DNA of 64,000 nucleotides. It comes from Pantoea sp. alder81 (lineage in GTDB: Bacteria > Pseudomonadota > Gammaproteobacteria > Enterobacterales > Enterobacteriaceae). Shown piece by piece: positions 52,901-64,000 of this stretch (position 1 is its first letter; each line of letters begins with the position of its first letter). Below the pieces are notes generated by a model that saw only the letters and a program-made list of their open reading frames with translations, searched no databases and was not told where the DNA came from. The stretch is from assembly GCF_020179835.1 (NCBI RefSeq), contig NZ_JAIUDA010000001.1, positions 971,459 to 1,035,458 on the forward strand, written 5' to 3'. A program made the position numbers and the translations under genes.

Positions 52901-53469
52901 TCAACGTGCTGGTTCTCGACACCCAGTGCTACTCCAATACCGGTGGACAAGCTTCCAAAGCTACGCCGCTCGGTGCAGTCACCAAGTTTGGCGAACAAGG
53001 CAAGCGTAAAGCACGTAAAGATTTAGGCGTTGCCACCATGCTGTATGGGCATGTTTATGTGGCCCAAATCTCGCTGGGCGCACAGTTGAATCAGACGGTG
53101 AAAGCGATTCAGGAAGCGGAGGCCTGGCCCGGTCCCTCGCTAATCATCGCTTACAGCCCATGTGAAGAACACGGATATGATTTGGCTTATAGCCATGAGC
53201 AGATGCGATTGTTAACCACCAGCGGGTTCTGGCCGCTGTATCGTTATGACCCTCGTCGTGCAGAGCAAGGTAAAGCGGCACTGGCGCTGGACTCTCGCCA
53301 GCCAACCTCAGTGCTGGAAGACGCATTGATGAACGAGCAGCGTTTCCGCCAGTTGCAAACCCGTGAACCGGAAGCTGCCGCGCAGTTATGGCAGGATGCG
53401 ACCGAAGCCGCCAATCAACGCTATCAGCGACTGGCGGAAATGGCCGGTAAAGCAGAGAAAAGTGACTAG
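49942..53469 (+). CDS. nifJ: Pyruvate:flavodoxin/ferredoxin oxidoreductase
   Basis: 1175-aa single-chain PFOR, nearly collinear with E. coli YdbK. Domain order: pyruvate-binding domain I with YPITPSSTMAELAD, domain II, the gamma domain with YFVYDSKKAGGLTVSHLRVS, two 4Fe-4S motifs CTQCNHCVAACPHA and CTGCNLCVEVCPAS, then the thiamine-diphosphate domain with the proximal-cluster cysteines SGACSGCGETPY and the GGDGWAYDIGYGGLDHVMS pocket. It forms acetyl-CoA, CO2 and reduced flavodoxin from pyruvate. It marks the right edge of the syntenic core. Confidence 0.97.
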   Translation: MITVDGNGAVASVAFRTSEVIAIYPITPSSTMAELADSWSGEGRRNIWGDIPRVVEMQSEGGAIATVHGALQTGALSTTFTSSQGLLLMIPTLYKLAGQLTPFVLHVAARTVATHALSIFGDHSDVMAVRQTGCAQLCASSVQEAQDFALISQMASLNSRVPFIHFFDGFRTSHEINKIVPISDETLQALMPAKAIAEHRARALTPDHPTIRGTSANPDTYFQSREATNRWYDACTGHVEAAMEAFAANTGRHYQPFEFYGHPQAERVIVMMGSGCGTAEEAIDVLLQRGEKVGLVKVRLYRPFSAAHLIKTLPTSVQRVAVLDRTKEPGALGEPLFLDVMTALAEAFSRGERPTLPRVIGGRYGLSSKEFAPDAVLAVFRALLREQPPARFTVGIYDDVTHLSLPMEANIVPNRARLEALFYGLGSDGSVSASKNNLKIIGNATPWHVQGYFVYDSKKAGGLTVSHLRVSEHPVQSAYLVQQADFIGCHQLQFIDKYSMLDQLKPGGIFLLNTPYAADEVWSRLPQEVQSQLNDKQARFYVINAARIARECQLGARINTVMQMAFFQLTQILPGDSALTELQNAISRSYSSKGEELVQRNWQALAMAQQALEAVPLQAVDQHSPHRPPVVSDSAPDFVKTVTAAMLAGLGDKLPVSALPPDGTWPVGTTQWEKRNIAEAIPIWQPDLCTQCNHCVAACPHAAIRAKVVTPEAMDSAPDSLASLDVKSRDMRGQKYVLQVAPEDCTGCNLCVEVCPASDRQHPEIKAINMQSRLEHVETEKVNYDAFLALPEITAEQLERIDIRTSQLITPLFEYSGACSGCGETPYIKLLTQLYGDRLLIANATGCSSIYGGNLPSTPYTTNAEGRGPAWANSLFEDNAEFGLGFRLSVDQQKQRALRLLDQCAPQLPEALLAALKEENVLPSVRREQIVELRQQLAASSSAHAGELQVIADALVEKSVWLIGGDGWAYDIGYGGLDHVMSLSENVNVLVLDTQCYSNTGGQASKATPLGAVTKFGEQGKRKARKDLGVATMLYGHVYVAQISLGAQLNQTVKAIQEAEAWPGPSLIIAYSPCEEHGYDLAYSHEQMRLLTTSGFWPLYRYDPRRAEQGKAALALDSRQPTSVLEDALMNEQRFRQLQTREPEAAAQLWQDATEAANQRYQRLAEMAGKAEKSD

Positions 53470-53476
53470 ATGAAGC

Positions 53477-53503
53477 AAGCCCGGCGCACTGGCCGGGCTT
53501 AAT
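53477..53503. terminator. Terminator after nifJ
   Basis: AAGCCCGGC (53477-53485) pairs with GCCGGGCTT (53492-53500). It lies between nifJ and the convergent FumD-like gene. Confidence 0.75.
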
Positions 53504-53506
53504 GAT

Positions 53507-53707
53507 TTAACAGGGTTTAAGCTGAATAATCGCCATCTCAACCGCACGATTGGGCGAGCCGGTTAATTCCCGATAACGCAGCTGCAGATTGCGCAACTCC
53601 GTCGCTACCACCTCTTTTTCTGTTGCTGATCCCCGCTGCGCCAGCTCGAGATAACATTGCCCGACTAGCCGGCACGCTTCTTCAAAAACCATGTCGTACG
53701 TTTGCAT
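53507..53707 (-). CDS. Small FumD/YdhZ-like (DUF2767) protein
   Basis: 66-aa soluble helical protein starting at the ATG 53707 after a strong GAGGAGAGG; an upstream in-frame ATG at 53776 is less likely. The pattern EEACRLVGQCYLELAQRG followed by VVATELRNLQLRYREL and AVEMAIIQL is like E. coli FumD/YdhZ (EMCRVVGKVVLEMRDLG... and AMETVINAL), a small DUF2767 protein reported as a fumarase. The match is by eye, so the enzymatic role is not claimed. A TTGAT-CTGG-GTAAA sequence near 53788 could be an imperfect FNR site. Confidence 0.72.
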   Translation of the reverse strand: MQTYDMVFEEACRLVGQCYLELAQRGSATEKEVVATELRNLQLRYRELTGSPNRAVEMAIIQLKPC

Positions 53708-54430
53708 CTGCCTCTCCTCACCTTTAGAAACTAAAAAAAACACTTCATCCATCCTGTCAGGCAGCGATGCGCGCAATCTTTACCCAGATCAATAAATGGG
53801 CAGATTGTTCTGGCAAAGTGTGCGGTTTTATCGCAGGAATCCGTGAAAAGAGATCACATCAGACTGGCATTCGCGTGCGCAATCCGTACCATACGCACTC
53901 ATGTCATAGGGGTTTATTGCCGCTGAAGCGTTATTCAGCCGCCAACGACCCTTGCGTTCATTCTCAAGCGTGAAAATAATGTCAGAAAATCAAGAAGTAA
54001 CGAAGAAAGAACAATATAACCTGAAGAAATAAGATTGATTGTCTAAGTATCTGGCAACATTATATATTCATTTTAAATCAATTGGTTAGATTAACGCTAA
54101 AGTACGCAGTCATACTCCCAGCCCCATTTTCAATGCCCATTTTAGTGCCCTGATTTGGGTTTTTGCCCCTGTTTTTGTCCCCTGTTTCTCCATCCCTAAA
54201 TAAAGAGTTAACCCCCCAGTTATTGCTGTTTAATCACAAGTGAATACATAAAATTCATTTTGTGGGTATATGCATTCAACTGACTAACTGTTTGCAGTTT
54301 AGTTGGTCTCACCAGCGAAGATCACGAATAAATTAACAGACAGCTTTGCATCGAGCCATTGATCTCACAGCCAATAGGGGATAACCATACTCAAATTTTC
54401 CACATTTCAGGAGTCTTGAGTATTAACACA
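53708..54430. other. Left edge of accessory island, no intact gene
   Basis: About 720 bp without a credible intact gene; AT content rises from about 53950 on. A short run of TTTT/GCCC alternations occurs at 54118-54190. On the minus strand a 51-codon frame with no start codon (about 54233-54081) is open there, ending GAGSMTAYFSVNLTN, and may be the tail of a lost gene. No tRNA or clear attachment repeat was seen. Confidence 0.5.
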
Positions 54431-55009
54431 TCTCCGTGGAACAAAGACTGTGTCATCGGTCAAAAAAAGACCACTTCAGCTGTAGTATCCTAATCCTGCT
54501 TGAACTGGAGGGGAAAAACGCGCGGTTTAGCTGTTTTCAATATGACCCTGGACAGTAAGCTTCGAGGCTGTGATCTGGTCAAACTAAAAGTATCGGATGT
54601 TGCATATGGCAGCTGAGCTTTTTAGGCAGAACAACAGTGCTGCAACAGAAAACCGGTAGCCCTGTGCAATTTGAGATAACCAAAGGGACAAGAGAAGTTG
54701 GTGCTGCAATGATATAGCTTGGCAATTTGAACAGTAAAGACTTCTTGTTCCGGTCCCGGACTGGCCAGCACATATTAACCCGGCAATACAACCGAATCTT
54801 TCTTGGGTTGGTTGAAAAGCTTGGTCTCTAAGATTCGCTTTACAGGACACATTCCCTTAGAAGAACAAAACCTTACCGGATTTACAAGAAAACCAAGAAT
54901 CTCCGGGTGAACCAACTTCTGTAGGGTCATAAGAAACTGGAAAGCACAGTCCGTCATCTGGGCATTGAACTCAATGATGCGTTAGAGATCTCTGAATCGA
55001 TTGAAATCT
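54431..55009 (+). pseudogene. Decayed tyrosine recombinase/integrase
   Basis: Pieces of one phage-type integrase can be read in order on the plus strand but in shifting frames with stops. They are SPWNKDCVIGQKKTT at 54431; RGLAVFNMTLDSKLRGCDLV at about 54522 with VKLKVSDVAYG after it; TTVLQQKTGSPVQFEITKG with TREVGAAMI at about 54633; FLFRSR..HILTRQYNRIF at about 54740; and KLESTVRHLGIELNDALEIS at about 54931, the end of the catalytic domain. These match a widespread group of integrases of about 200 aa (WNKG-LVGQK, DSKLRGCDLV, LLLGHTKLESTVRYLG). At least three frameshifts are needed and the RHxxR/HxxRR segment is damaged, so it is inactive. Confidence 0.85.
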
Positions 55010-55437
55010 TAGGTTGTCAGCGCTGCAACAGCAGCCCTGTGCCAGAGGCAGATCTCATAAGTCATTATAAAGTAATCAATAAAGAAAAATCGGGAAGGAA
55101 AAGGTAGTGCACTATAACAAAAATAATTCAGAAACCTCTTATCAATAATTCTTACTGACGTGCCAGACTAAATTTCTTTGTTTGTACGAGAGCAGGAGAA
55201 GGGTTACGCTTGATAATAACAATTATCCGTAAAACCGATATCATAACTATATGAATACTATATAAATATACTAACTGATGAAAGACATCGCTCTATAGTT
55301 TGAAAATGCAAGACGCTCAGAGCGTATAGTGACAACAGGAGTGCACCTACATTATTTTCGCATACACATTTGACAAAGTTTCATACTGAGATTATATCTT
55401 AAGTTAACTATCCACATTCTAATTTATTGGTGATGCT
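55010..55437. other. Upstream region of RiPP locus, no gene
   Basis: 428 bp of very AT-rich DNA between the integrase remnant and the precursor peptide gene. No protein-coding frame is convincing. It should contain the promoter of the RiPP operon; AT-rich hexamers are too many to choose one with confidence. Confidence 0.4.
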
Positions 55438-55611
55438 ATGGTTGAGCCTAAAAAACCTCGCAAAATAGATCTTTCAAAAATTAATTTTGATGATTATGAA
55501 AACATTGACGTCCTAATAAAAAAACTTATTGAAGAACAAAAAAAACAATTAGGTGGTGATCAAACAGCTCATGCAAGTGATCATCGGAGTAGTCACACCA
55601 ATCAAATTTAA
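55438..55611 (+). CDS. Putative RiPP precursor peptide with His-x-Ser tetrad core
   Basis: 57-aa open frame, too short for common gene finders, starting after GGTGA. Residues 1-38 form a charged leader (MVEPKKPRKIDLSKINFDDY, then ENIDVLIKKLIEEQKKQL). A Gly-Gly at 39-40 precedes a 17-residue C-terminus, DQTAHASDHRSSHTNQI. That tail is periodic: His45-Ala-Ser-Asp, His49-Arg-Ser-Ser, His53-Thr-Asn-Gln. A gap of 34 bp separates it from an FxsB-like radical SAM gene, followed by an HExxH modifying enzyme, so it is the obvious substrate. An aromatic residue plus a polar residue two positions on is the motif joined by cyclophane-forming maturases. Nothing tests this here. Confidence 0.8.
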   Translation: MVEPKKPRKIDLSKINFDDYENIDVLIKKLIEEQKKQLGGDQTAHASDHRSSHTNQI

Positions 55612-55645
55612 TTTATATTAAAATTTAATGTAACAAGGGGTGAGG

Positions 55646-56800
55646 ATGACTGACTTTTCATTCCATATTAAAAAACCAACTCTTCACCAAGTTATTTTTA
55701 AAATTTCCCAGAAATGCAATATAAATTGCACGTATTGCTACGTTTATAACATGGGGGATAGTTCTTGGTCCCAACGAGAGAATTTTGCTAGTGATGAGAT
55801 TGTTCAGGCCTTAGCAAATAAAATTAAAGAACATGTTGAATTCTATAACATGAAGACTTTTCATCTAGAACTGCATGGTGGGGAGCCTTTATTATATGGG
55901 AAAGCACGGCTACGAAAACTGCTTACAACTATGGATTTTATAGTTGGCAAACAAATCCTCAGATATTCAATTCAAACCAACGGATTGCTTCTGGATAGAG
56001 AGTGGGTTGATTTGTTTTCTGAATTTAAAGTTAATGTAGGCATTAGTATTGATGGACCTCCATCAACTTTCTCAAAAAGAGTTAATAGACGAGGACGGGA
56101 CATTACTCAAAATTTATTAAATATTCTTGGGAATTTGCATATCACTAGAGCAAATTTTAAGCCAGGAGCACTAGCCGTCATTTCTGACACATCTGATATC
56201 TGTGAATTAATCGATTGGTTTCCCACTATAGGAATTTATTCTTTTGATTTACTACTTCCACTTGGGAATATTTTAACCCCGCCCAGCGGAATATCAGACC
56301 TGGCATCTTTAGAAGAGAAACTGATTAAAGGTTTCGAATACTGGAGATCTCTTGGTGAAGGGGCACCAAGAATTAGGTTGTATGAATTAATGATTAAAGG
56401 ATTTCTTGGGCATGAGGTTTGCCTCGATGCACTAGGAGGCGATTTAACTAATTTGTGTGTTGTTGAGTCAAATGGTGCAATTGGAATGAGTGATGTAACT
56501 CGATTCCTTGGTGGTATATATTCTAGTGATGACATTAATATTAAAACACATAAGTTGGATGTGCATTCTGAACATTTCAAAGTTCAGGAATCACAAAAGC
56601 TTTGTGACACATGTAAAAATTGTGTTGTAGTGAATGCGTGTGGCGGGGGCTACATACCAGACCGTTTTGATGGTGTGAGCTTTAATAATCCGACATATTA
56701 CTGCAGTGTTATGTATGGACTTGGGCAGCATATTTTAAAGTATATGCAACAGTCGATTCCTGAAAAGGCTTGGGTGGAGGGGGTGAATCGTGTTGGATAG
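55646..56800 (+). CDS. FxsB-like radical SAM/SPASM peptide maturase
   Basis: 384-aa radical SAM enzyme. Cys24, Cys28 and Cys31 in KCNINCTYCYVYNMGDSSW bind the SAM-cluster, and ELHGGEPLL is the SAM-contact motif; both are close to FxsB, a maturase that installs cyclophane cross-links in peptides. A C-terminal SPASM domain with Cys in HEVCLDALGG, NLCVVESNG, LCDTCKNC, NACGGGY and YYCSVM would hold auxiliary clusters. The ATG at 55646 follows AAGGGG and a GTG at 55640 is in frame. It overlaps the next gene by 11 bp. Base composition is AT-rich, unlike the core genes. Confidence 0.9.
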   Translation: MTDFSFHIKKPTLHQVIFKISQKCNINCTYCYVYNMGDSSWSQRENFASDEIVQALANKIKEHVEFYNMKTFHLELHGGEPLLYGKARLRKLLTTMDFIVGKQILRYSIQTNGLLLDREWVDLFSEFKVNVGISIDGPPSTFSKRVNRRGRDITQNLLNILGNLHITRANFKPGALAVISDTSDICELIDWFPTIGIYSFDLLLPLGNILTPPSGISDLASLEEKLIKGFEYWRSLGEGAPRIRLYELMIKGFLGHEVCLDALGGDLTNLCVVESNGAIGMSDVTRFLGGIYSSDDINIKTHKLDVHSEHFKVQESQKLCDTCKNCVVVNACGGGYIPDRFDGVSFNNPTYYCSVMYGLGQHILKYMQQSIPEKAWVEGVNRVG

Positions 56801-57902
56801 TTTATTATCTTGTGCTAGCCCTTTTTCAGAGCAAAGCATTCATGACACTCTATTAAATAGGAAAAGTTCCTTTTCTATAGTATTGGCTCAAAATTTATTG
56901 CAAAACCTTAAATGTCACCAAGTTCCCCTATGGGTTATAGAAGCTCTAATTTGTATTTCTGATCGGTCATTACCAAATAACAGCAACGCATGGGCACCTG
57001 AGATACCCTCAATTCTTCAATGGTTGGCAGATACAACCCTAGAGCCTCCATATTTCAAAATAGAGTTATATGCCGTTAGATTATCAGGATTTTGCGTGCA
57101 AGGAAAATTTTCTAATACAGCCTCTCCAGGCTTTGGTTCCTTTAATGGAATTCCTGCTAGATATTTAAAAAATCAGGAGTTCATAATAAAACAAAACACG
57201 ATCACATTTAGAGAAACAATAAATGAAAACCACGATAATGTTCATAAAATATCGACATCAATGTTTCTTGGTGATGCTGTTGCATTTAAAGAAACTATCA
57301 ACAATGGCTATGACACATCATCTAAGCTTACGATTGGGAATTTTAATGAACTAGACATGCTAAATAGGCTCGCTATAAATGAACTAACCTCTACAGGAGT
57401 GTTGGCAGAGTGGGTGACTTCTGCAATAACAAGTTTATACGTCACCGAGGCCGAAAAAAACTCTTTCAGTTCTGGTAGTTGGGATAAGCATTGTGGGCTT
57501 TCCTATTGTTCACTTCGGGACGAGGTATTCCAACTGGCCGACATATTACTTCATGAAGCATGCCATCAAAATTTTTATTTTATCAATTTGAACAAATGTT
57601 TGCATGAAGATGATGGCATTCTCAGATTATCTCCGGCTGTTAATTTACCTCGACCGATCTGGGCAATTTTACTTGCATATCATGCATTTTCTAACGTGTC
57701 TATATTTTACTATAAAGCAAACTATCTACAGGATGAAATGAAAATAAGACATGCATTGAAAAATTTTGATTATGCTGTTAAGGCGGAGGAAATCCTCAAT
57801 GATTATATATTTACTGAGCAGGGTGCTAAAATTTTCTTTGAGAGTTTAAAATCGATATTTTCCACTGTAAAAAATGCTTACCTAGATATGAAGCATCTTT
57901 AA
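56790..57902 (+). CDS. Stand-alone HExxH peptide-modifying protein
   Basis: 370-aa protein beginning with GTG at 56790, preceded by GGAGGGGG; the start lies inside the end of the radical SAM gene, so translation is coupled. It has no signal peptide. The metal motif HEACH is at residues 255-259, and about 35 residues later LPRPIWAILLAYHAFSNVSI matches the DPRPLGGLLQG-like second motif of the HExxH domain found fused to or beside FxsB-type enzymes (family now called aKG-HExxH-type peptide beta-hydroxylase). It is therefore likely an iron/2-oxoglutarate enzyme that hydroxylates the precursor rather than a peptidase. The N-terminal 180 residues are unrecognised. Confidence 0.82.
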   Translation: MLDSLLSCASPFSEQSIHDTLLNRKSSFSIVLAQNLLQNLKCHQVPLWVIEALICISDRSLPNNSNAWAPEIPSILQWLADTTLEPPYFKIELYAVRLSGFCVQGKFSNTASPGFGSFNGIPARYLKNQEFIIKQNTITFRETINENHDNVHKISTSMFLGDAVAFKETINNGYDTSSKLTIGNFNELDMLNRLAINELTSTGVLAEWVTSAITSLYVTEAEKNSFSSGSWDKHCGLSYCSLRDEVFQLADILLHEACHQNFYFINLNKCLHEDDGILRLSPAVNLPRPIWAILLAYHAFSNVSIFYYKANYLQDEMKIRHALKNFDYAVKAEEILNDYIFTEQGAKIFFESLKSIFSTVKNAYLDMKHL

Positions 57903-58115
57903 ATAAAACCTCATTCTTATTAAATTTATTACAAATAAAAACAATCACCACCCCATCATGGACTGCTAATTAAATAATTGAATGTGAAATATTCGCTTAA
58001 TTACATACGTTCCCTTCACCATCTAATACAGTATTTCTTTATATAAACATATAGACAAACCAGACCATTTTCTTTCAGTGAACTATTCGATACAAACATG
58101 ATTGGAATTTAAAGA

Positions 58116-58132
58116 GTGCGCGCTAAGCGCAC
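58116..58132 (-). terminator. Candidate terminator of the Septu operon
   Basis: On the minus strand GTGCGC (58132-58127) pairs with GCGCAC (58121-58116), loop of 5 nt, followed by TCTTTAAATT. It lies just beyond the ptuB stop. Confidence 0.5.
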
Positions 58133-58140
58133 CTTCTAAG

Positions 58141-58815
58141 CTAGAATCCCAGTTCTTGCCTTAAGTTTGGATGCCTTCTTTTTAGTATTACATCACTAAT
58201 AACATGCCATCTCCAAAAAATTGAGAATGGGTAATTGCTTGAGCACATTATCGCTAAAGATTGTTTTGCAGCAATCACACTCTCAATTGAACTCAACCTT
58301 TGGGCCAAGACATCCCTTAGTGGTCTAAAGTTATTAAGCTCCACTAAAATCTTTTCCATCAAACTCTCTTTAGAGATTTTTCTTAAGCTAGTATTCTCTA
58401 AATTAAAACATTTACTTAGAAGCAGAACTGTGTTTTCAACTTGCACAGAGGGATTTTTTGAATGAGGTCTAATAACGATCTCACCGACATCAGCATTACC
58501 AGCAAAATGTACTATTTCATCTGAAACGTTAATTGCTGAAACAGTACAATCGAGAAGATTTATATGATTAGTACTTTTAATGCCATTACATCGACGGCAG
58601 ACAAAAAACAAATTATCCCAGCCAAATTTTAATGCTTTATTTTTGTTATGTGGCACAAAATGCTCCACTTCGGGATCGGATATAGAACCTTGTTCACATA
58701 AATAACATTTATCATGAAAAATCAGGCGTAAAGCGTCAATTACATCTTGATCTTTGTAGGTTCGATTTAAAGCTAGACTAGTAGGGGCAGGATAGGAACG
58801 AGTGACATTAAACAT
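58141..58815 (-). CDS. ptuB: HNH endonuclease, PtuB of a Septu system
   Basis: 224-aa HNH nuclease. Two CxxC pairs (Cys37/Cys40 and Cys73/Cys76, in HDKCYLCEQ and FVCRRCNGIK) bracket EVEHFVPHNKN with the catalytic His52 and FGWDNLFF with Asn68, the zinc-supported HNH fold. Its ATG overlaps the stop of the ATPase gene by 8 bp. The pair ATPase-HNH is the Septu (PtuAB) anti-phage arrangement. The C-terminal 120 residues are helical and unassigned. Confidence 0.85.
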   Translation of the reverse strand: MFNVTRSYPAPTSLALNRTYKDQDVIDALRLIFHDKCYLCEQGSISDPEVEHFVPHNKNKALKFGWDNLFFVCRRCNGIKSTNHINLLDCTVSAINVSDEIVHFAGNADVGEIVIRPHSKNPSVQVENTVLLLSKCFNLENTSLRKISKESLMEKILVELNNFRPLRDVLAQRLSSIESVIAAKQSLAIMCSSNYPFSIFWRWHVISDVILKRRHPNLRQELGF

Positions 58816-60040
58816 TATCTTGTTCCTCTTTCCAGTCTATAAATTTCGATTTAGCACCTAAAAATGTCGCCTTGGCCTTTGGATTTAAAAAATCCATATT
58901 TTCTTCCAAAATGGATATGATTGAATGAAATCTTGAATTATAAATATCTTTTTTACTAAGCGTGCTTAATTCGTTTAACAAACCTTCGAGCTCATTTGAA
59001 TTTGTGGTTTCCCCAAGCAAACCTTTAATGATGGAACTATAAGAATAAATGGAAAGATCTTCCATTTTTTCATTCTTGGATAGATTATATATTATTGCAT
59101 CAGATACTGATTGGACCACAAAAGGAGAGTGAGTTGAAATTATAAACTGAATATCTTTAAAGCTTTCCGATAAAAAATTAAATACTTTCTTTTGAAGTGT
59201 AACATGCAAATGCGCATCAACTTCATCAATAATAACAATCCCTTTTATTTCATCTTTTCTTCTGTTGCTTAACTCAGAAACCATTATTAGCTCTGCATAT
59301 ATTGCAAGGATAGATGAATAACCTGAGGGGAGATGACTCAAGCTGAACGGGTCTTTATTCTTTTGATTGATTTCCATCCTTAATTTTTTTCGATTGAATG
59401 ACAACAACAAACTTTCATCTTCGAATAAACTTCTAAGATCATACTGTATTTTTTGAACTATACCATTTACACGATTATACTCTTCAATCTGTTCTGCCCC
59501 CTTTTCAAGGAGGGCATAATTGCTCATTGAAACCAAATAGGATTCGAAATAACTGCTCGTAGATTGAAAGTTTGAGTTATTACTTTTGAACCTTTCAAAC
59601 AGGCTATCTATGCTAGTTAAAAGATTATTTCCATCACTATTATAAAAACGCCCAGCCTCGAAAAATCTGAATATAATCTCATTGTTTTTTATACTTTGGA
59701 TAAAGGATGTACTTGAGGATAGCGTTACATCAAGAACATTTTTTTCGTCAAGAAGGCTTTTGTAATGACTGATGGCATTGAGAATATTATTATGTTCTTC
59801 AGTATCAATCTTGAATTGTTTCAAGTGAGAATTATGATCATCAATCAATTTATTCAGGCTTTCTGATGTTTGATATTGACCTCCTTGGAATAACTTATTT
59901 AGACTGCTCTGTAACGCCTTTAAAAATTTGGTTTTCCCAGCCCCGTTGTTACCAACGATGATCAGATTCTTACCATCTATTATTATTTTTCTGCGACCAG
60001 CATTTGTTTTTTGAGCAATGCTTCTTATATATTTAGCCAT
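58808..60040 (-). CDS. ptuA: AAA/ABC-type ATPase, PtuA of a Septu system
   Basis: 410-aa soluble ATPase of the SMC/RecF-like class. Walker A is GNNGAGKT at residues 30-37; the middle is coiled and Ser/Asn-rich (about 60-220); an ABC-type signature appears as SHLPSGYSS at 235-243, Walker B IVIIDEVD at 268-275 and the switch His304 in ISTHSPFVV. It starts after GGAG and is followed by the overlapping HNH gene. Septu PtuA forms a complex with PtuB that cuts nucleic acid on phage infection. No reverse transcriptase or retron RNA is nearby, so a retron-associated form is not supported. Confidence 0.85.
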   Translation of the reverse strand: MAKYIRSIAQKTNAGRRKIIIDGKNLIIVGNNGAGKTKFLKALQSSLNKLFQGGQYQTSESLNKLIDDHNSHLKQFKIDTEEHNNILNAISHYKSLLDEKNVLDVTLSSSTSFIQSIKNNEIIFRFFEAGRFYNSDGNNLLTSIDSLFERFKSNNSNFQSTSSYFESYLVSMSNYALLEKGAEQIEEYNRVNGIVQKIQYDLRSLFEDESLLLSFNRKKLRMEINQKNKDPFSLSHLPSGYSSILAIYAELIMVSELSNRRKDEIKGIVIIDEVDAHLHVTLQKKVFNFLSESFKDIQFIISTHSPFVVQSVSDAIIYNLSKNEKMEDLSIYSYSSIIKGLLGETTNSNELEGLLNELSTLSKKDIYNSRFHSIISILEENMDFLNPKAKATFLGAKSKFIDWKEEQDNV

Positions 60041-60858
60041 ATTAACTCCAAATTAAAATTTTTGCGTAAAATTTACCATTACATCATTTAAATACTTCTT
60101 AACACTTAAACCAAAAATTCCCGTCTAAATTTATATTTTTTCATATTGCACGTTATTGAAAAACAAAAAAAAGAGTTTCGCTCAGTAAAAAATCAAGGCT
60201 CTTTTAATACGTCTAATTCTTGAATCACAGCTCTTTATTACCTTCGATAATTTGCCCTACTTTTTCAGGTATCTAAAAGAGGCAACGCTTTGAACTGAAC
60301 CAATGGAATTACTTGCCAGAAATAGGTAATATCCAATGGGGCACAGAAGGCGACATTATCTAAGATAATACGAAACTCTTTGTGATTTTCAACGTACTAA
60401 AATCTGTTAGCAACAATGGCTATAATAATCAACAGTTCCATCTACTATCCTTGTTTTTTTCAGTCATTCCATCCTCCCTTGCGCACATAGTATCACGCAC
60501 CTGCTGATTGTTAATGTCCACGTTAGCCGAGTCGTAAAGATCCGTGATGAACCCACTTAGCACTAACTGACTGAAATCAATACAAATTTATTTTTACTTA
60601 ATTCTATTCAGTACGGATAACATTCTATTAAGAAATTCAATCACAAACCGCCTAATGCAACAAGCGCTAATGGCTCCGAGGTTTACCGTAAGTATTTGCC
60701 GAAATATTGAATGGCTACAAAAGAATACAATTTGATAAGGACTACTTATTATCCTAATTGCTTCTATCAATCAATCACTTTTAGTTGAACTTGTTTAGTC
60801 CGATACTAATTGGCTGCTCTCCATTGATGATGCTGCAATGCTGACGATTTAACCTAAA
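60041..60858. other. AT-rich gap between Septu and umuC, no gene
   Basis: 818 bp with many stops in all frames. No protein family could be recognised; fragments such as LPEIGNIQWGTEGDII near 60315 look like they could come from a lost gene but match nothing I know. The ptuA promoter should lie within the first 150 bp. Confidence 0.5.
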
Positions 60859-62121
60859 TCATCTTGCAATAGGCAAGTCCGAAAACCTCGTAGTGTAAGC
60901 CGGCGACAGCATTTCCCGCTTCATGGCCCATGTTTTCTGCACTCCCTGTCCTGCAAACCATAATTTCCCCTTCCCGCTCTGATTGAGGCCATCAACTACG
61001 CGCATCAGCGCTTCACTGTTGGCCTGTGGCTTAAATTCGTCAAAGAGATTGAGCTGCGAAACGCCCTGGCTGTAGAAATCCCCGAGCATCACGCCGGCTT
61101 TCATAAAGCGGCATCCATCGAGCCAGATGCGATCCAGTGAATCCATGGCCACGCGGATAATGTCACGCGTGTCGTTGGAAGGTGTCATCAGCGTGCCCAT
61201 GGCCTGATTACCGTAAAACGTCTCCCCTACCGCGTGCGGACTGGTTCGGACGAAAACGGCTATCTGCCGGCAGTATTGTCGTTCACTTCTGAGCTTTTCG
61301 GCAGCGCGCTCGGCATAAGCACACACAGCCTGACGCATATCCTGATATTCCGTTATGCGGGAACCGAAAGAACGCGAACAGACAATCTGCTGTTTCGTGG
61401 GTGCGAACTCCTCCAGTTCGAGGCAGGGTTCACCGCGCAGCTCTCTTACGGTGCGTTCGAGCACAACGTTGAAATGTTTGCGTATGATGTACGTGCTTTG
61501 CTCGGACAGGTCTTTCGCGGAGATGATGCCCATCGCATTGAGCTTTTTGCTGATGCGCCGGCCAACACCCCAGACATCTTCAACCTTCACCAGCTCCATC
61601 AACCTGCGCTGGCGATCGACGTTCGATAAATCCAGCACGCCGCCGGTCTTCGTCCATTTTTTGGCGGCATGATTGGCCAGCTTGGCCAGTGTCTTGGTCG
61701 GTGCGATACCGACGCCGACCGTCAGGTGCGTATCGCGCTTCACGCGCGCGCGAATTTCCCGCCCGTATTCTTCCAGCACACGGCAGTTTCGAACCCCGGT
61801 CAGGTCCATAAAAGCTTCGTCAATGGAGTAGATTTCAACTGAGGGCGCCATATCTTCCAGAGTGGTCATCACTCTGTTGCTCATGTCCGCGTACAAGGCG
61901 TAATTGGAACTGAATACGTGAACTTTATGACGCCTGAACTCGTCTTTGAGCTTGAAGTACGGTGCCCCCATAGGCAGCTGTAGGGCCTTCGCTTCTGCCG
62001 AACGCGCGATAACACAGCCATCGTTGTTGGAGAGGACAACTACCGGCTTGCCACGCAGGTCCGGTCTGAACACCGTTTCACAGCTGGCGTAAAACGAGTT
62101 CACATCCACCAGGGCAAACAT
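60859..62121 (-). CDS. umuC: DNA polymerase V catalytic subunit UmuC
   Basis: 420-aa Y-family translesion polymerase; E. coli UmuC is 422. The active-site motifs [20 protein letters not shown] and [13 protein letters not shown] are intact, and the little-finger domain follows. A clamp-binding sequence, QLNLFDEF, is seen near residue 357. The start shares one base with the umuD stop (TAATG). With UmuD' it copies damaged DNA during the SOS response. Such umuDC pairs are common on mobile elements; this one lies in the accessory island. Confidence 0.96.
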
Positions 62122-62543
62122 TAACGGCCCATCGTCTTAATGGAGTGCCGGACAACGCCGAAGATTTCAAACTGGTCGGCATCAGGGATCAGGATGATAG
62201 CGTGTGCAGCATTCATGGGTTTGAGATGCAGGAATGGCCGGGTCATCAGTTGCTTCACGGTGAACTCGCCGGAAATCGCGGCCACGATGATATCCCCATG
62301 CTCCGCGGTGACGGAGCTGTCCACCACCAGCATGTCGCCATCATTAATGCCACCCTCAATCATCGAATCACCACTGACCCGGATGAAGTAGGTCGAGCTG
62401 GGGTGGCTGACCAGCAGATTGTTGAGGTCGAGTCGCTGCTCAACGTAGTCCTGCGCCGGCGACGGAAAACCACATGGCACGCGGGCAATGAAAAGCGGCA
62501 ACTCAAGAACAGCGCGGATTTCCGCTGGTCTGAAAAACTCCAT
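62121..62543 (-). CDS. umuD: Translesion polymerase V autoprotease UmuD
   Basis: 140-aa LexA-like protein (E. coli 139). The self-cleavage site is Cys24-Gly25, with Ser60 in [10 protein letters not shown] as nucleophile and Lys97 in EFTVKQLM as base. The ATG at 62543 is chosen because [18 protein letters not shown] is the known start; longer frames run through the LexA box. RecA-promoted cleavage yields UmuD', which joins UmuC. Confidence 0.96.
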
Positions 62544-62561
62544 GATAATTGCCCTGATAAA

Positions 62562-62581
62562 TACTGTATATATAAACAGTA
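62562..62581. promoter_or_regulatory. LexA (SOS) box before umuDC
   Basis: TACTGTATATATAAACAGTA fits the consensus TACTG(TA)5CAGTA with only one or two departures in the centre. It lies 19 bp before the umuD ATG and overlaps its expected promoter. Confidence 0.93.
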
Positions 62582-62888
62582 ATCGTAAACAGCACAATCG
62601 ATCAAGTCAGGCAGAAAGACTTTTTCCAAACGCGTTGTTGGTAAAGGGGATTTAATTTGAGGTGTACGGGAGGCTGTCAGCCTGGGTGGATAGCCATGAG
62701 CGCAGGGGGTGATAGTTTTGGTGCATTTTTCAGGCCGTCATAAACCAGGGAAAATCAGCAGCAAACGTAGCCGCTTCGGTTAAGGGTCTGAAATTTAATT
62801 TATTAGTCGCTGATTAATATGACTTATTAGAAATTAATGGCACATAATCACTTTCTTTAATGCATCCTACCACCCGTATTATGTTGGT
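62582..62888. other. Intergenic region upstream of umuD, no gene
   Basis: About 300 bp without a convincing frame. It ends in TATTAT at 62877-62882, which could be the -10 of the transcript that reaches the terminator at 62977. Confidence 0.4.
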
Positions 62889-63002
62889 CTATGGTATGTG
62901 GGTCAGTCACTTACTGGCAGCAAAGCACACAGGATGCGTTTCATACGAGAGAGACATTCCTTAGCCACTGCTTTTTGCCCGCCTTGTGCGGGCTTTTTTT
63001 TT
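62889..63002 (+). ncRNA. Candidate small RNA ending in a strong terminator
   Basis: A near-perfect terminator with no upstream gene on the plus strand, preceded at a suitable distance by TATTAT (62877-62882), suggests a transcript of about 114 nt. No open frame with a ribosome site lies inside. The -35 is weak. The RNA family is not recognised; its 3' end stops 14 bp short of the end of the opposing small gene. Confidence 0.35.
62977..63002 (+). terminator. Orphan Rho-independent terminator
   Basis: GCCCGC (62977-62982) pairs with GCGGGC (62988-62993), loop CTTGT, followed by nine T. It is plus-strand only and no plus-strand gene precedes it. Confidence 0.9.
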
Positions 63003-63015
63003 AAGATGCCATGTC

Positions 63016-63249
63016 TTAACCATTCGGATTGAACAGTTGAAACATGCGTTCCTCCCCCTCCCTGGTTGATATGTCACGGAAAGTTGTCGTATGCATCTCA
63101 ATCCATTTGTTGGCGGCGCGTAATGAATAACGCCAATTCATACGATCAAGCTCTTTGACGAAGTCGAGTGTGCTGATGGTGTAACGGCCAGCAGCATCAC
63201 GCTTAACCGCCTGCCTGAAAGCCAATAGAATTTCGTAGTCGCGTGGCAT
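63016..63249 (-). CDS. Small SOS-controlled protein of unknown function
   Basis: 77-aa soluble, charged protein starting MPRDYEILLAFRQAVKRDAA; it contains a helix-turn pattern (YSLRAANKWIEMHTTTFRDI) that could bind nucleic acid, but no family is recognised with confidence. Its ATG lies 17 bp from a perfect LexA box at 63267-63286, so expression should be SOS-induced. It lies next to umuDC and a TraR-like gene, which suggests prophage or plasmid origin. Confidence 0.78.
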   Translation of the reverse strand: MPRDYEILLAFRQAVKRDAAGRYTISTLDFVKELDRMNWRYSLRAANKWIEMHTTTFRDISTREGEERMFQLFNPNG

Positions 63250-63626
63250 TTAGATGCCCCTAATAATACTGTATATAATAACAGTATTATTGAGGTGCAG
63301 ATGCGGATCAAGTCGTTCCATCGGAGTGTTTTGTAAGGCTGTTGAATGCTATAGGAATTTAAATATGGATAGGTATTTCGATTGCTGGCAGGTCAGACTT
63401 AGGACATCCAGATTGATCTTTGGGGGGCGGGCATACTGTGGTGGGCAATGAACGATATCATGCCGCCAGGGAGACGGGTAACGCAGTGAATCGTATTCAA
63501 ATCAAGCCTTAAGCCCCAAACCTGTGTAATTGAACTATGCTGTGAGGCTGGACATTGAATGGCAATACAGGACTGAGGCTAACAAACCCTCTTTAATACA
63601 ACGAAATGACTATAAGGATCTCGATT
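63250..63626. other. Gap with LexA box and an 11-codon frame, no other gene
   Basis: 377 bp. Beside the LexA box it has GAGGTG followed by ATG at 63301 and an 11-codon frame, MRIKSFHRSVL, ending at 63336; this looks like the start of a lost SOS gene. The rest has no supported gene. Confidence 0.4.
63267..63286. promoter_or_regulatory. LexA (SOS) box, second
   Basis: TACTGTATATAATAACAGTA has both conserved half-sites TACTGT and ACAGTA. It sits between the 77-aa gene on the minus strand and a short plus-strand frame with its own GAGG at 63292-63295. Confidence 0.93.
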
Positions 63627-63839
63627 ATGGATGATGTGGACCTGGCTCAGGAACGTGAAGCAGCTCATCTGGATGCCTCTCTATCTGCCCGAAAGCCACC
63701 TCTAATGAGCCGTAATGGTTACTGTATCTGGTGCACTGATGAGGCAATCGTTGCTAATACCGCTTTCTGTTCCGCGGAATGTGACGAGGACTATCATAAG
63801 CATCGGCGTGAGATGAAGCAGAGAATTACGGGTGATTAG
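63627..63839 (+). CDS. TraR/DksA-like small zinc-finger protein
   Basis: 70-aa protein. The N-terminus MDDVDLAQEREAAHLDASLS with ARKPPL is like the helical arm of phage and plasmid TraR proteins, which bind RNA polymerase; the C-terminus YCIWCTDEAIVANTAFCSAE with CDEDYHKHRREMKQR is a C4 zinc motif of a different spacing from classic TraR, like DUF2116-type zinc ribbons. The ATG at 63627 follows AAGGA; an in-frame ATG at 63606 adds 7 residues. It probably comes from a mobile element. Confidence 0.68.
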   Translation: MDDVDLAQEREAAHLDASLSARKPPLMSRNGYCIWCTDEAIVANTAFCSAECDEDYHKHRREMKQRITGD

Positions 63840-63873
63840 GCAACTTGATGAGACATTCATCAAAAACTGTAAT

Positions 63874-64000
63874 TGAATCGCCACGGATAATCTAGACACT
63901 TCCGAGCCGTTGATAATACTGGTTTTCATATTCTGTCGGTGACATCTGATCGCTAGAACCATGCCGACGCTTACTGTTATAAAACATTTCGATGTAATCA
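63874..64000 (-). mobile_element. Right end of an IS3-family insertion sequence, cut by window
   Basis: The sequence from TGAATCGCCACGGATAATCT at 63874 onward has the look of an IS3-family terminal repeat and is followed by the transposase end. The other end lies beyond the window. Confidence 0.65.
63892..64000 (-). CDS. IS3-family transposase OrfB, C-terminal end
   Basis: The final 35 codons of an rve-type transposase, beginning DYIEMFYNSKRRHGSSDQMS and ending PTEYENQYYQRLGSV before TAG. The FYNxKRRH motif is the usual end of IS3-family OrfB proteins. The 5' part and OrfA are outside the window, so integrity is unknown. Confidence 0.85.
   Translation of the reverse strand, partial: DYIEMFYNSKRRHGSSDQMSPTEYENQYYQRLGSV

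Follow-up and report, generated by a model that had tools for sequence, protein, structure and literature searches.

A compact RiPP-type locus with a histidine-only core in Pantoea sp. alder81

We describe a compact locus for a ribosomally synthesized and post-translationally modified peptide (RiPP) in Pantoea sp. alder81, located in a 64,000-nucleotide stretch of contig NZ_JAIUDA010000001.1 (positions 971,459 to 1,035,458; hereafter the window, from whose first letter positions are counted). The locus consists of three plus-strand genes with intact frames, encoding a 57-aa peptide, a radical S-adenosylmethionine (SAM)/SPASM protein and a 370-aa HExxH protein, and is a real, intact and rare RiPP-type cluster. 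It likely represents a new variety of cyclophane peptide, combining a His-only periodic core, an enzyme clade outside the curated models tested and a probably mobile setting. By a narrow preference, we favor a mechanism in which the radical SAM enzyme joins each of the three His to the Ser or Asn at i+2 through the beta-carbon of the latter, and the HExxH protein then beta-hydroxylates the cross-linked core.

A three-gene cluster with a periodic histidine core

A sequence-only reading of this DNA, made earlier by a model, had proposed a compact RiPP-type locus, and its layout was confirmed: the precursor and radical SAM genes are separated by 34 bp, and the radical SAM and HExxH genes overlap by 11 bp. 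The three genes likely form one operon, with the following features.

55438..55611, plus strand: precursor peptide, 57 aa, with a relative (P0005) in Klebsiella quasipneumoniae
55570..55602, plus strand: codons of the core units H45-A-S47, D48, H49-R-S51, S52 and H53-T-N55, assigned by pattern and position
55635..55640, plus strand: Shine-Dalgarno-like AAGGGG, read in the sequence, 5 bases 5' of the radical SAM ATG
ATG at 55646, stop at 56800, plus strand: radical SAM/SPASM enzyme, 384 aa, predicted three-residue cyclophane synthase (YhhB/FxsB scores, ChlB match, tree)
56790..57902, plus strand: stand-alone HExxH protein, 370 aa, predicted alpha-ketoglutarate (alpha-KG)/Fe-dependent peptide beta-hydroxylase

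There is no protease, exporter/transporter or YhhC gene in the cluster. Promoter-like (12, with 13.3 expected) and terminator-like signals (2, with 1.6 expected) were about as frequent as expected and none is claimed, and no RNA family matched within 53400–64000 at gathering thresholds.

The only His residues of the peptide are at positions 45, 49 and 53, in QTAHASDHRSSHTNQI, and the residues two on are Ser, Ser and Asn, in agreement with the histidine core that had been proposed. The core thus reads as three 4-residue units (HASD, HRSS, HTNQ), and the leader and core would span about residues 1–43 and 44–57. Ser or Asn at i+2 of all three His was reached by 0.1% of shuffles of the whole peptide and by 0.6% of shuffles of residues 42–57. 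The spaced His pattern occurs once in the window's 127,996 six-frame residues; it recurs in nine marine viral loci and in L016, a locus from a different genome of the same order as the host.

Conservation of the 57-aa frame had been set beforehand as a test of the earlier proposal, and a search of about 5.8 billion proteins returned one relative besides the window's own peptide, P0005 from K. quasipneumoniae, which is 84% identical across all 57 residues. The proposal thus withstood this test, on the basis of a single relative. Eight of the nine differences fall in residues 1–41. Residues 42–57 are identical except for the ninth (Ser47 to Asn), with unit phasing and all His residues kept. A double-glycine cleavage site is not shared, as the GG at 39–40 is replaced by GD in the Klebsiella peptide. 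The precursor matched no NCBIfam family at E up to 1, including the YhhA model (NF041705), and plasmid searches with the precursor and with the cluster DNA gave no match. The leader resembles that of YhhA by eye, with an hhalign E of only 0.014, and homology is not claimed; the alignment with the Rhodococcus frame described below gave E 0.21. The YhhA alignment comprised 11 loci; L002, L003, L004 and L007, whose precursors have different cores, were left out.

A radical SAM enzyme outside the curated families

The earlier proposal of a cyclophane-type radical SAM enzyme beside a short precursor was supported. Two hallmarks of triceptides (three-residue cyclophane RiPPs) are present, namely a cyclophane-type radical SAM/SPASM enzyme adjoining a short precursor and, for 3/3 His, a core in which the aromatic residue at i has a potential acceptor two residues on. 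The radical SAM and SPASM cysteines are in place, and the closest solved relative is ChlB (9gm3, 1.8e-44). The three best NCBIfam models were YhhB (NF041707; 241.7 bits, cut-off 445), FxsB (TIGR04269; 215.1 bits, cut-off 370) and XyeB (TIGR04496; 144.3 bits, cut-off 450), with all three scores under the cut-offs; HxsB of the His-Xaa-Ser system (TIGR03978) scored 50.1 bits (cut-off 370). Membership of each of these families was therefore rejected, and in the case of YhhAB the core also has no Tyr and the locus no YhhC. Accordingly, the label "FxsB-type" given by the sequence-only reading was dropped, as YhhB scores higher than FxsB and neither reaches its cut-off, while its statement that the locus is not of Xye type held. 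FxSxx-COOH is the precursor end of FxsB systems; the window's peptide ends in SSHTNQI.

Among the best 120 of 1067 protein matches, the nearest were from Klebsiella (95% identity) and Stutzerimonas kunmingensis (68%), followed by unnamed proteins at 50–65%. In a maximum-likelihood tree of 39 rows, which used 16 of these 120 matches and excluded the L014 enzyme (two overlapping frames), L041–L045 and L058, the window's enzyme fell in a 19-row clade (support 100/98) that also includes rows from Rhodococcus, Ralstonia, Actimicrobium, Collimonas, Paludibacterium, Kitasatospora, Cyclobacteriaceae and Snuella. Nine of the 10 rows with YhhA-type cores formed a separate clade (support 100/100). The tenth, L051 from Rhizobium (annotated as YhhB), joined the HaaB row through long branches, in a grouping marked as doubtful by the program, which gives long-branch warnings for L016, L054 and L057 as well.

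A stand-alone HExxH protein with the fold of the ChlB hydroxylase domain

A stand-alone protein of alpha-KG/HExxH type had also been proposed, and the structural model bears this out. The modelled protein has the alpha-KG/HExxH fold seen in the HExxH domain of ChlB, which is one of its two clear structural matches (the other is SjiH), at 15% identity to the HExxH part of ChlB. Considering these matches, a metalloprotease reading is not favored. H255, E256, H259, S281, P282, R288 and P289 are invariant in 13/13 aligned rows, and ChlH carries the same HExxH and SP...RP residues by profile alignment. Judged by its model, and because it scored 36.4 bits on TIGR04267 (cut-off 40), the protein is a divergent relative with the same fold, outside TIGR04267 as filed.

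HExxH enzymes can do more than hydroxylate. Passages of PMC12636437 describe two from Pseudomonas RiPP clusters, PflC and PosC, which combine Gln hydroxylation with oxidative cleavage of the backbone, and state that PflC is proteolytic without a leader. If the window's enzyme likewise matured its peptide by oxidative backbone cleavage (or by hydrolysis) rather than by simple hydroxylation, this would explain the missing protease gene. We consider this unlikely, as the peptide lacks an ARMD-like motif, just two residues follow HTN in the core, and host enzymes of the TldD/TldE type can trim leaders (passage in PMC12707348).

Comparison with related loci

Twenty radical SAM loci were screened for HExxH genes and for short frames 5' of the radical SAM gene. 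Frames ending in Y(D/N)RxHNRHNR, some 1–3 residues longer, are present in nine genome loci (L005, L006, L008–L014). A separate HExxH gene lies downstream in 8/9 of these loci, one of them from a Methylococcaceae bin; the sequence available for the ninth (L014) ends shortly after the radical SAM gene. L009, the only YhhA-type locus tested against NCBIfam, passes the YhhA, YhhB, YhhC and HExxH cut-offs (517.7 bits on NF041707 for its radical SAM protein). In L014 (9971–11109), from Xanthomonas cucurbitae, the YhhA-like precursor frame is intact, and the adjoining radical SAM gene lies in two overlapping frames, from a frame-shift or a sequencing error.

The YhhA/YhhB/YhhC triceptides (NF041705, NF041707, NF041706) share with the window a short precursor just 5' of a cyclophane-type radical SAM gene, aromatic residues (Tyr, His and His in YhhA) at i with a partner at i+2, and a separate HExxH gene, and YhhB is the best-scoring model for the window's enzyme. 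They differ in the core (YDRxHNRHNR, compared with HASDHRSSHTN), in the separate and supported clade of the radical SAM enzyme, and in the YhhC 2OG-Fe(II) oxygenase gene that follows YhhB, whereas in the window the HExxH gene overlaps the radical SAM gene with nothing between. The FxsB family (TIGR04269), which includes the HaaB locus, has a related radical SAM enzyme, but the window's enzyme is below its cut-off and the peptide lacks an FxS-type C-terminus. ChlB of Chlorogloeopsis, compared here at the level of the enzymes, fuses the radical SAM and alpha-KG/HExxH parts that are two genes in the window.

Two further loci are similar in layout. A Rhodococcus sp. DMU1 plasmid (L039) encodes a 65-aa hypothetical protein, a radical SAM enzyme of the 19-row clade and a separate HExxH protein, and the tail of its short frame, YDKHTSNHLRNTI, has HTS; it differs in that its first unit begins with Tyr, its radical SAM enzyme is 39.6% identical to that of the window, and its next gene, on the other strand, is of the caspase family. 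L016 (1225–4098) has an HxS-repeat frame of period 4 with HGSAHGSGHASGHLS, a radical SAM gene and a separate HExxH gene (73.3 bits), but its radical SAM protein is nearest XyeB (308.7 bits, cut-off 450) and lies on a long branch outside the 37-row group that holds the window's enzyme. After the HExxH protein of L016, the start of a frame appears HlyD-like by eye. Because the YhhA-type, Rhodococcus and L016 loci already show such features, the earlier suggestion of novelty for a gammaproteobacterial His core with a split HExxH enzyme as such did not stand. What does look new, within what could be searched and on sequence comparison, is the particular core together with the enzyme clade: a His-only HxS/N core with this clade appears elsewhere only in Klebsiella, in the data searched. 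Among open-licence papers, no paper on an HxS/N triceptide or on this locus was found by title or abstract.

Other histidine-rich frames were seen near related enzymes. Snuella sedimenti (L002, 9651–9998) has a 115-aa frame with HIK/HDK/HIK/HIS units 5' of a radical SAM gene of the window's clade, with no HExxH gene beside the radical SAM gene and no match in the genome with the four-row HExxH profile A1, which is insensitive. L058, from the order of Comamonas badia, has a frame rich in HDR/HNK/HSR units (1277–1501) before its radical SAM gene, with no HExxH frame within its 4.1 kb of sequence. The nine marine IMG/VR viral contigs (L061–L069) have HxSC repeats near a radical SAM match. In L061 (4504–6781), a 159-aa frame and a radical SAM-like frame are directly followed by a 257-aa protein ending in CHSSCHGSCHGSRGRR, which has a near-identical counterpart in L069; this is possibly a phage protein modified by the phage's own radical SAM enzyme.

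Distribution

The genome samples used were small parts of each family, phylum, class and order, and the Klebsiella and Stutzerimonas copies are known as proteins only. With the HExxH protein as query, 1/392 genomes of the family matched, and with profile A1, 1/398 genomes of the phylum; in both cases, this was the host. Profile A1 missed genomes with a known HExxH gene (e.g., L005, L006, L008, L010, L011), so its empty results speak only on close relatives. The radical SAM profile matched 5/369 genomes of the class at 1e-60, including the host (the others at 2.0e-62 to 2.9e-74), and 1/399 genomes of the order of C. badia at 1e-80. At 1e-60, 0/35 genomes of the genus of X. cucurbitae matched, a result that carries no information, since even the genome with the known, apparently frame-shifted copy was missed at this threshold. 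Viral contigs gave 14 weak radical SAM relatives with the profile and none with the window's protein, and phage records gave 15 radical SAM matches, all below 60% identity.

Proposed maturation and its alternatives

In the favored mechanism, the leader (about residues 1–43) would guide both enzymes. A 5'-deoxyadenosyl radical would abstract the beta-hydrogen of residue i+2, and the resulting radical would add to the imidazole of the His at i (at C2, if YhhB and HaaB are a guide). Three small cyclophanes would result, each lowering the mass by about 2.016 Da. Linkages for YhhB, HaaB, MscB, XncB and OscB are given in a passage of PMC11002830, where HaaB makes a C2(His)-Cbeta(Ala) link. Fe(II)/alpha-KG-dependent hydroxylation of beta-carbons would follow, likeliest at Asp48 or the histidines (+15.995 Da each); a fused relative beta-hydroxylates Asp and His in a manner dependent on a cyclophane, according to part of PMC12636437. 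With neither a protease nor an exporter encoded in the cluster, the leader would be removed by proteases of the host, for example TldD/TldE, which would stop at the cross-linked core; this last assignment is a guess from the passage in PMC12707348.

Several observations weigh against this mechanism. All of the chemical steps are inferred, and His-Ser and His-Asn cyclophanes are not among the linkages compared from the literature passages at hand. The radical SAM enzyme lies outside the main YhhB clade, and therefore the linkage type and atom need not carry over. Two other loci of the clade that were compared as DNA have different units (YDK, HTS and HLR in Rhodococcus; HIK, HDK, HIK and HIS in Snuella), so Ser/Asn acceptors are not general in the 19-row clade. 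Core conservation rests on two sequences, and the leader is weakly similar to YhhA (E 0.014 at an hhalign probability of 3%). For the HExxH protein, the score falls 3.6 bits short of the TIGR04267 cut-off and the model has a mean pLDDT of 66.3. Finally, no separate Klebsiella HExxH protein was among the matches listed, though the precursor and radical SAM relatives (P0005, P0006) were; the gene may be missing or disrupted in Klebsiella, or its product may be masked within the 90% cluster P0001.

In view of its place in a clade of its own, below the curated cut-offs, the radical SAM enzyme could install another modification on the His units; this might be an ether, a link via Arg50, Asp48 or Thr54, or the outcome of some other radical reaction. 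Acceptors do vary, both among characterized relatives (Arg, Ala, Asn, Asp and Ser, as given in part of PMC11002830) and among loci of the enzyme's own clade. We regard this as somewhat improbable, since the Ser/Asn residues keep their i, i+2 register, and the two known peptides differ within residues 42–57 at just one acceptor position, by a change that stays within Ser/Asn.

An AT-rich insert at ttcA

The GC content is 49–58% up to 53 kb, 32–43% in 1-kb windows from 53.5 to 61 kb and 47–56% at 60.5–62.5 kb. The RiPP genes lie in this AT-rich insert, together with the following features.

53992..54029, plus strand: 38-bp copy of the ttcA 5' end, left junction of the insert, placed by the synteny stop with three same-genus genomes
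54374..55052, no strand assigned: degenerate tyrosine-recombinase remnant left of the cluster, by DNA identity to integrase genes
58141..58815, minus strand: PtuB-type HNH protein, a neighbor outside the RiPP cluster (PADLOC PDLC00331, 260.4 bits; NCBIfam PtuB, 28.2 bits, below 150)
58808..60040, minus strand: PtuA-type ATPase, a neighbor (PADLOC PDLC00268, 390.4 bits; NCBIfam PtuA, 84.7 bits, below 500)

The gene at the junction is one that we take to be ttcA from its sequence. Five same-genus relatives were aligned with the left flank. In three, the alignment ends at 54028–54029 and an intact ttcA start follows; in the nearest relative it ends at 54348, and in the remaining one at 53818. The host's near full-length ttcA match (Pfam, PP-loop) is on contig C22 (31070–31949; L087 15012–15992), where it adjoins an integrase, RecT, an exonuclease VIII-like protein, a repressor and a cytosine methylase; one frame from the first 16 kb of C22 was searched in PHROGs and matched no family. 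The recombinase remnant has 86.8–87.4% DNA identity to annotated E. coli integrase genes (20 of 770 matched records), and the longest stop-to-stop frame in 53980–55440 is 90 aa. Rac of E. coli sits in ttcA. By our reading, ttcA here would hold a Rac-like prophage or island that has its integrase at one end and the RiPP genes at the other. Contig C11 stops where the window does, and the link between C11 and C22 is a proposal. Beyond the PtuA/PtuB pair (58141–60040; such pairs are called Septu), 60859–62561 (a polymerase and a UmuD-like protein) and 63606–63836 (DksA-like) match PHROGs families, and the nearest relative has the 60859–63000 stretch at 89%. No tRNA gene was found in the window. 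Overall, the insert is likely a prophage with the RiPP genes as cargo.

The degenerate integrase beside the locus, the lack of transporter, protease and YhhC genes and the lack of a separate Klebsiella HExxH protein among the matches listed would also fit a decaying remnant of a RiPP cluster that yields no product. This is very unlikely given three intact frames with catalytic motifs, a radical SAM protein 95% identical to that of Klebsiella and a precursor in which 8/9 differences fall in residues 1–41.

Implications

The likeliest guess for the biological role is a peptide acting on competing bacteria. More tentatively, the product might be a prophage-borne, all-His triceptide whose three imidazole rings stand at a strict spacing of four residues, with C2-Cbeta(Ser/Asn) links flanked by beta-hydroxyls. 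Such a rigid tris-imidazole array, carried as cargo together with PtuAB defense, might bind metal or obstruct an outer-membrane or phage target. If the favored mechanism is correct, cyclophane peptides would come to include a core built solely from His-x-Ser/Asn units and a radical SAM clade outside all of the curated models tested, encoded by a minimal set of three genes that could be co-expressed in one step. Having two separate enzymes would allow a direct test of the order of cross-linking and hydroxylation, which is harder with the fused ChlB. As triceptide bioactivities are described as not yet elucidated in a passage of PMC12257519, a compact, probably mobile locus would be a good one in which to ask about them. 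The ttcA junction and the PtuAB neighbors suggest that such peptides travel between enterobacteria as mobile cargo.
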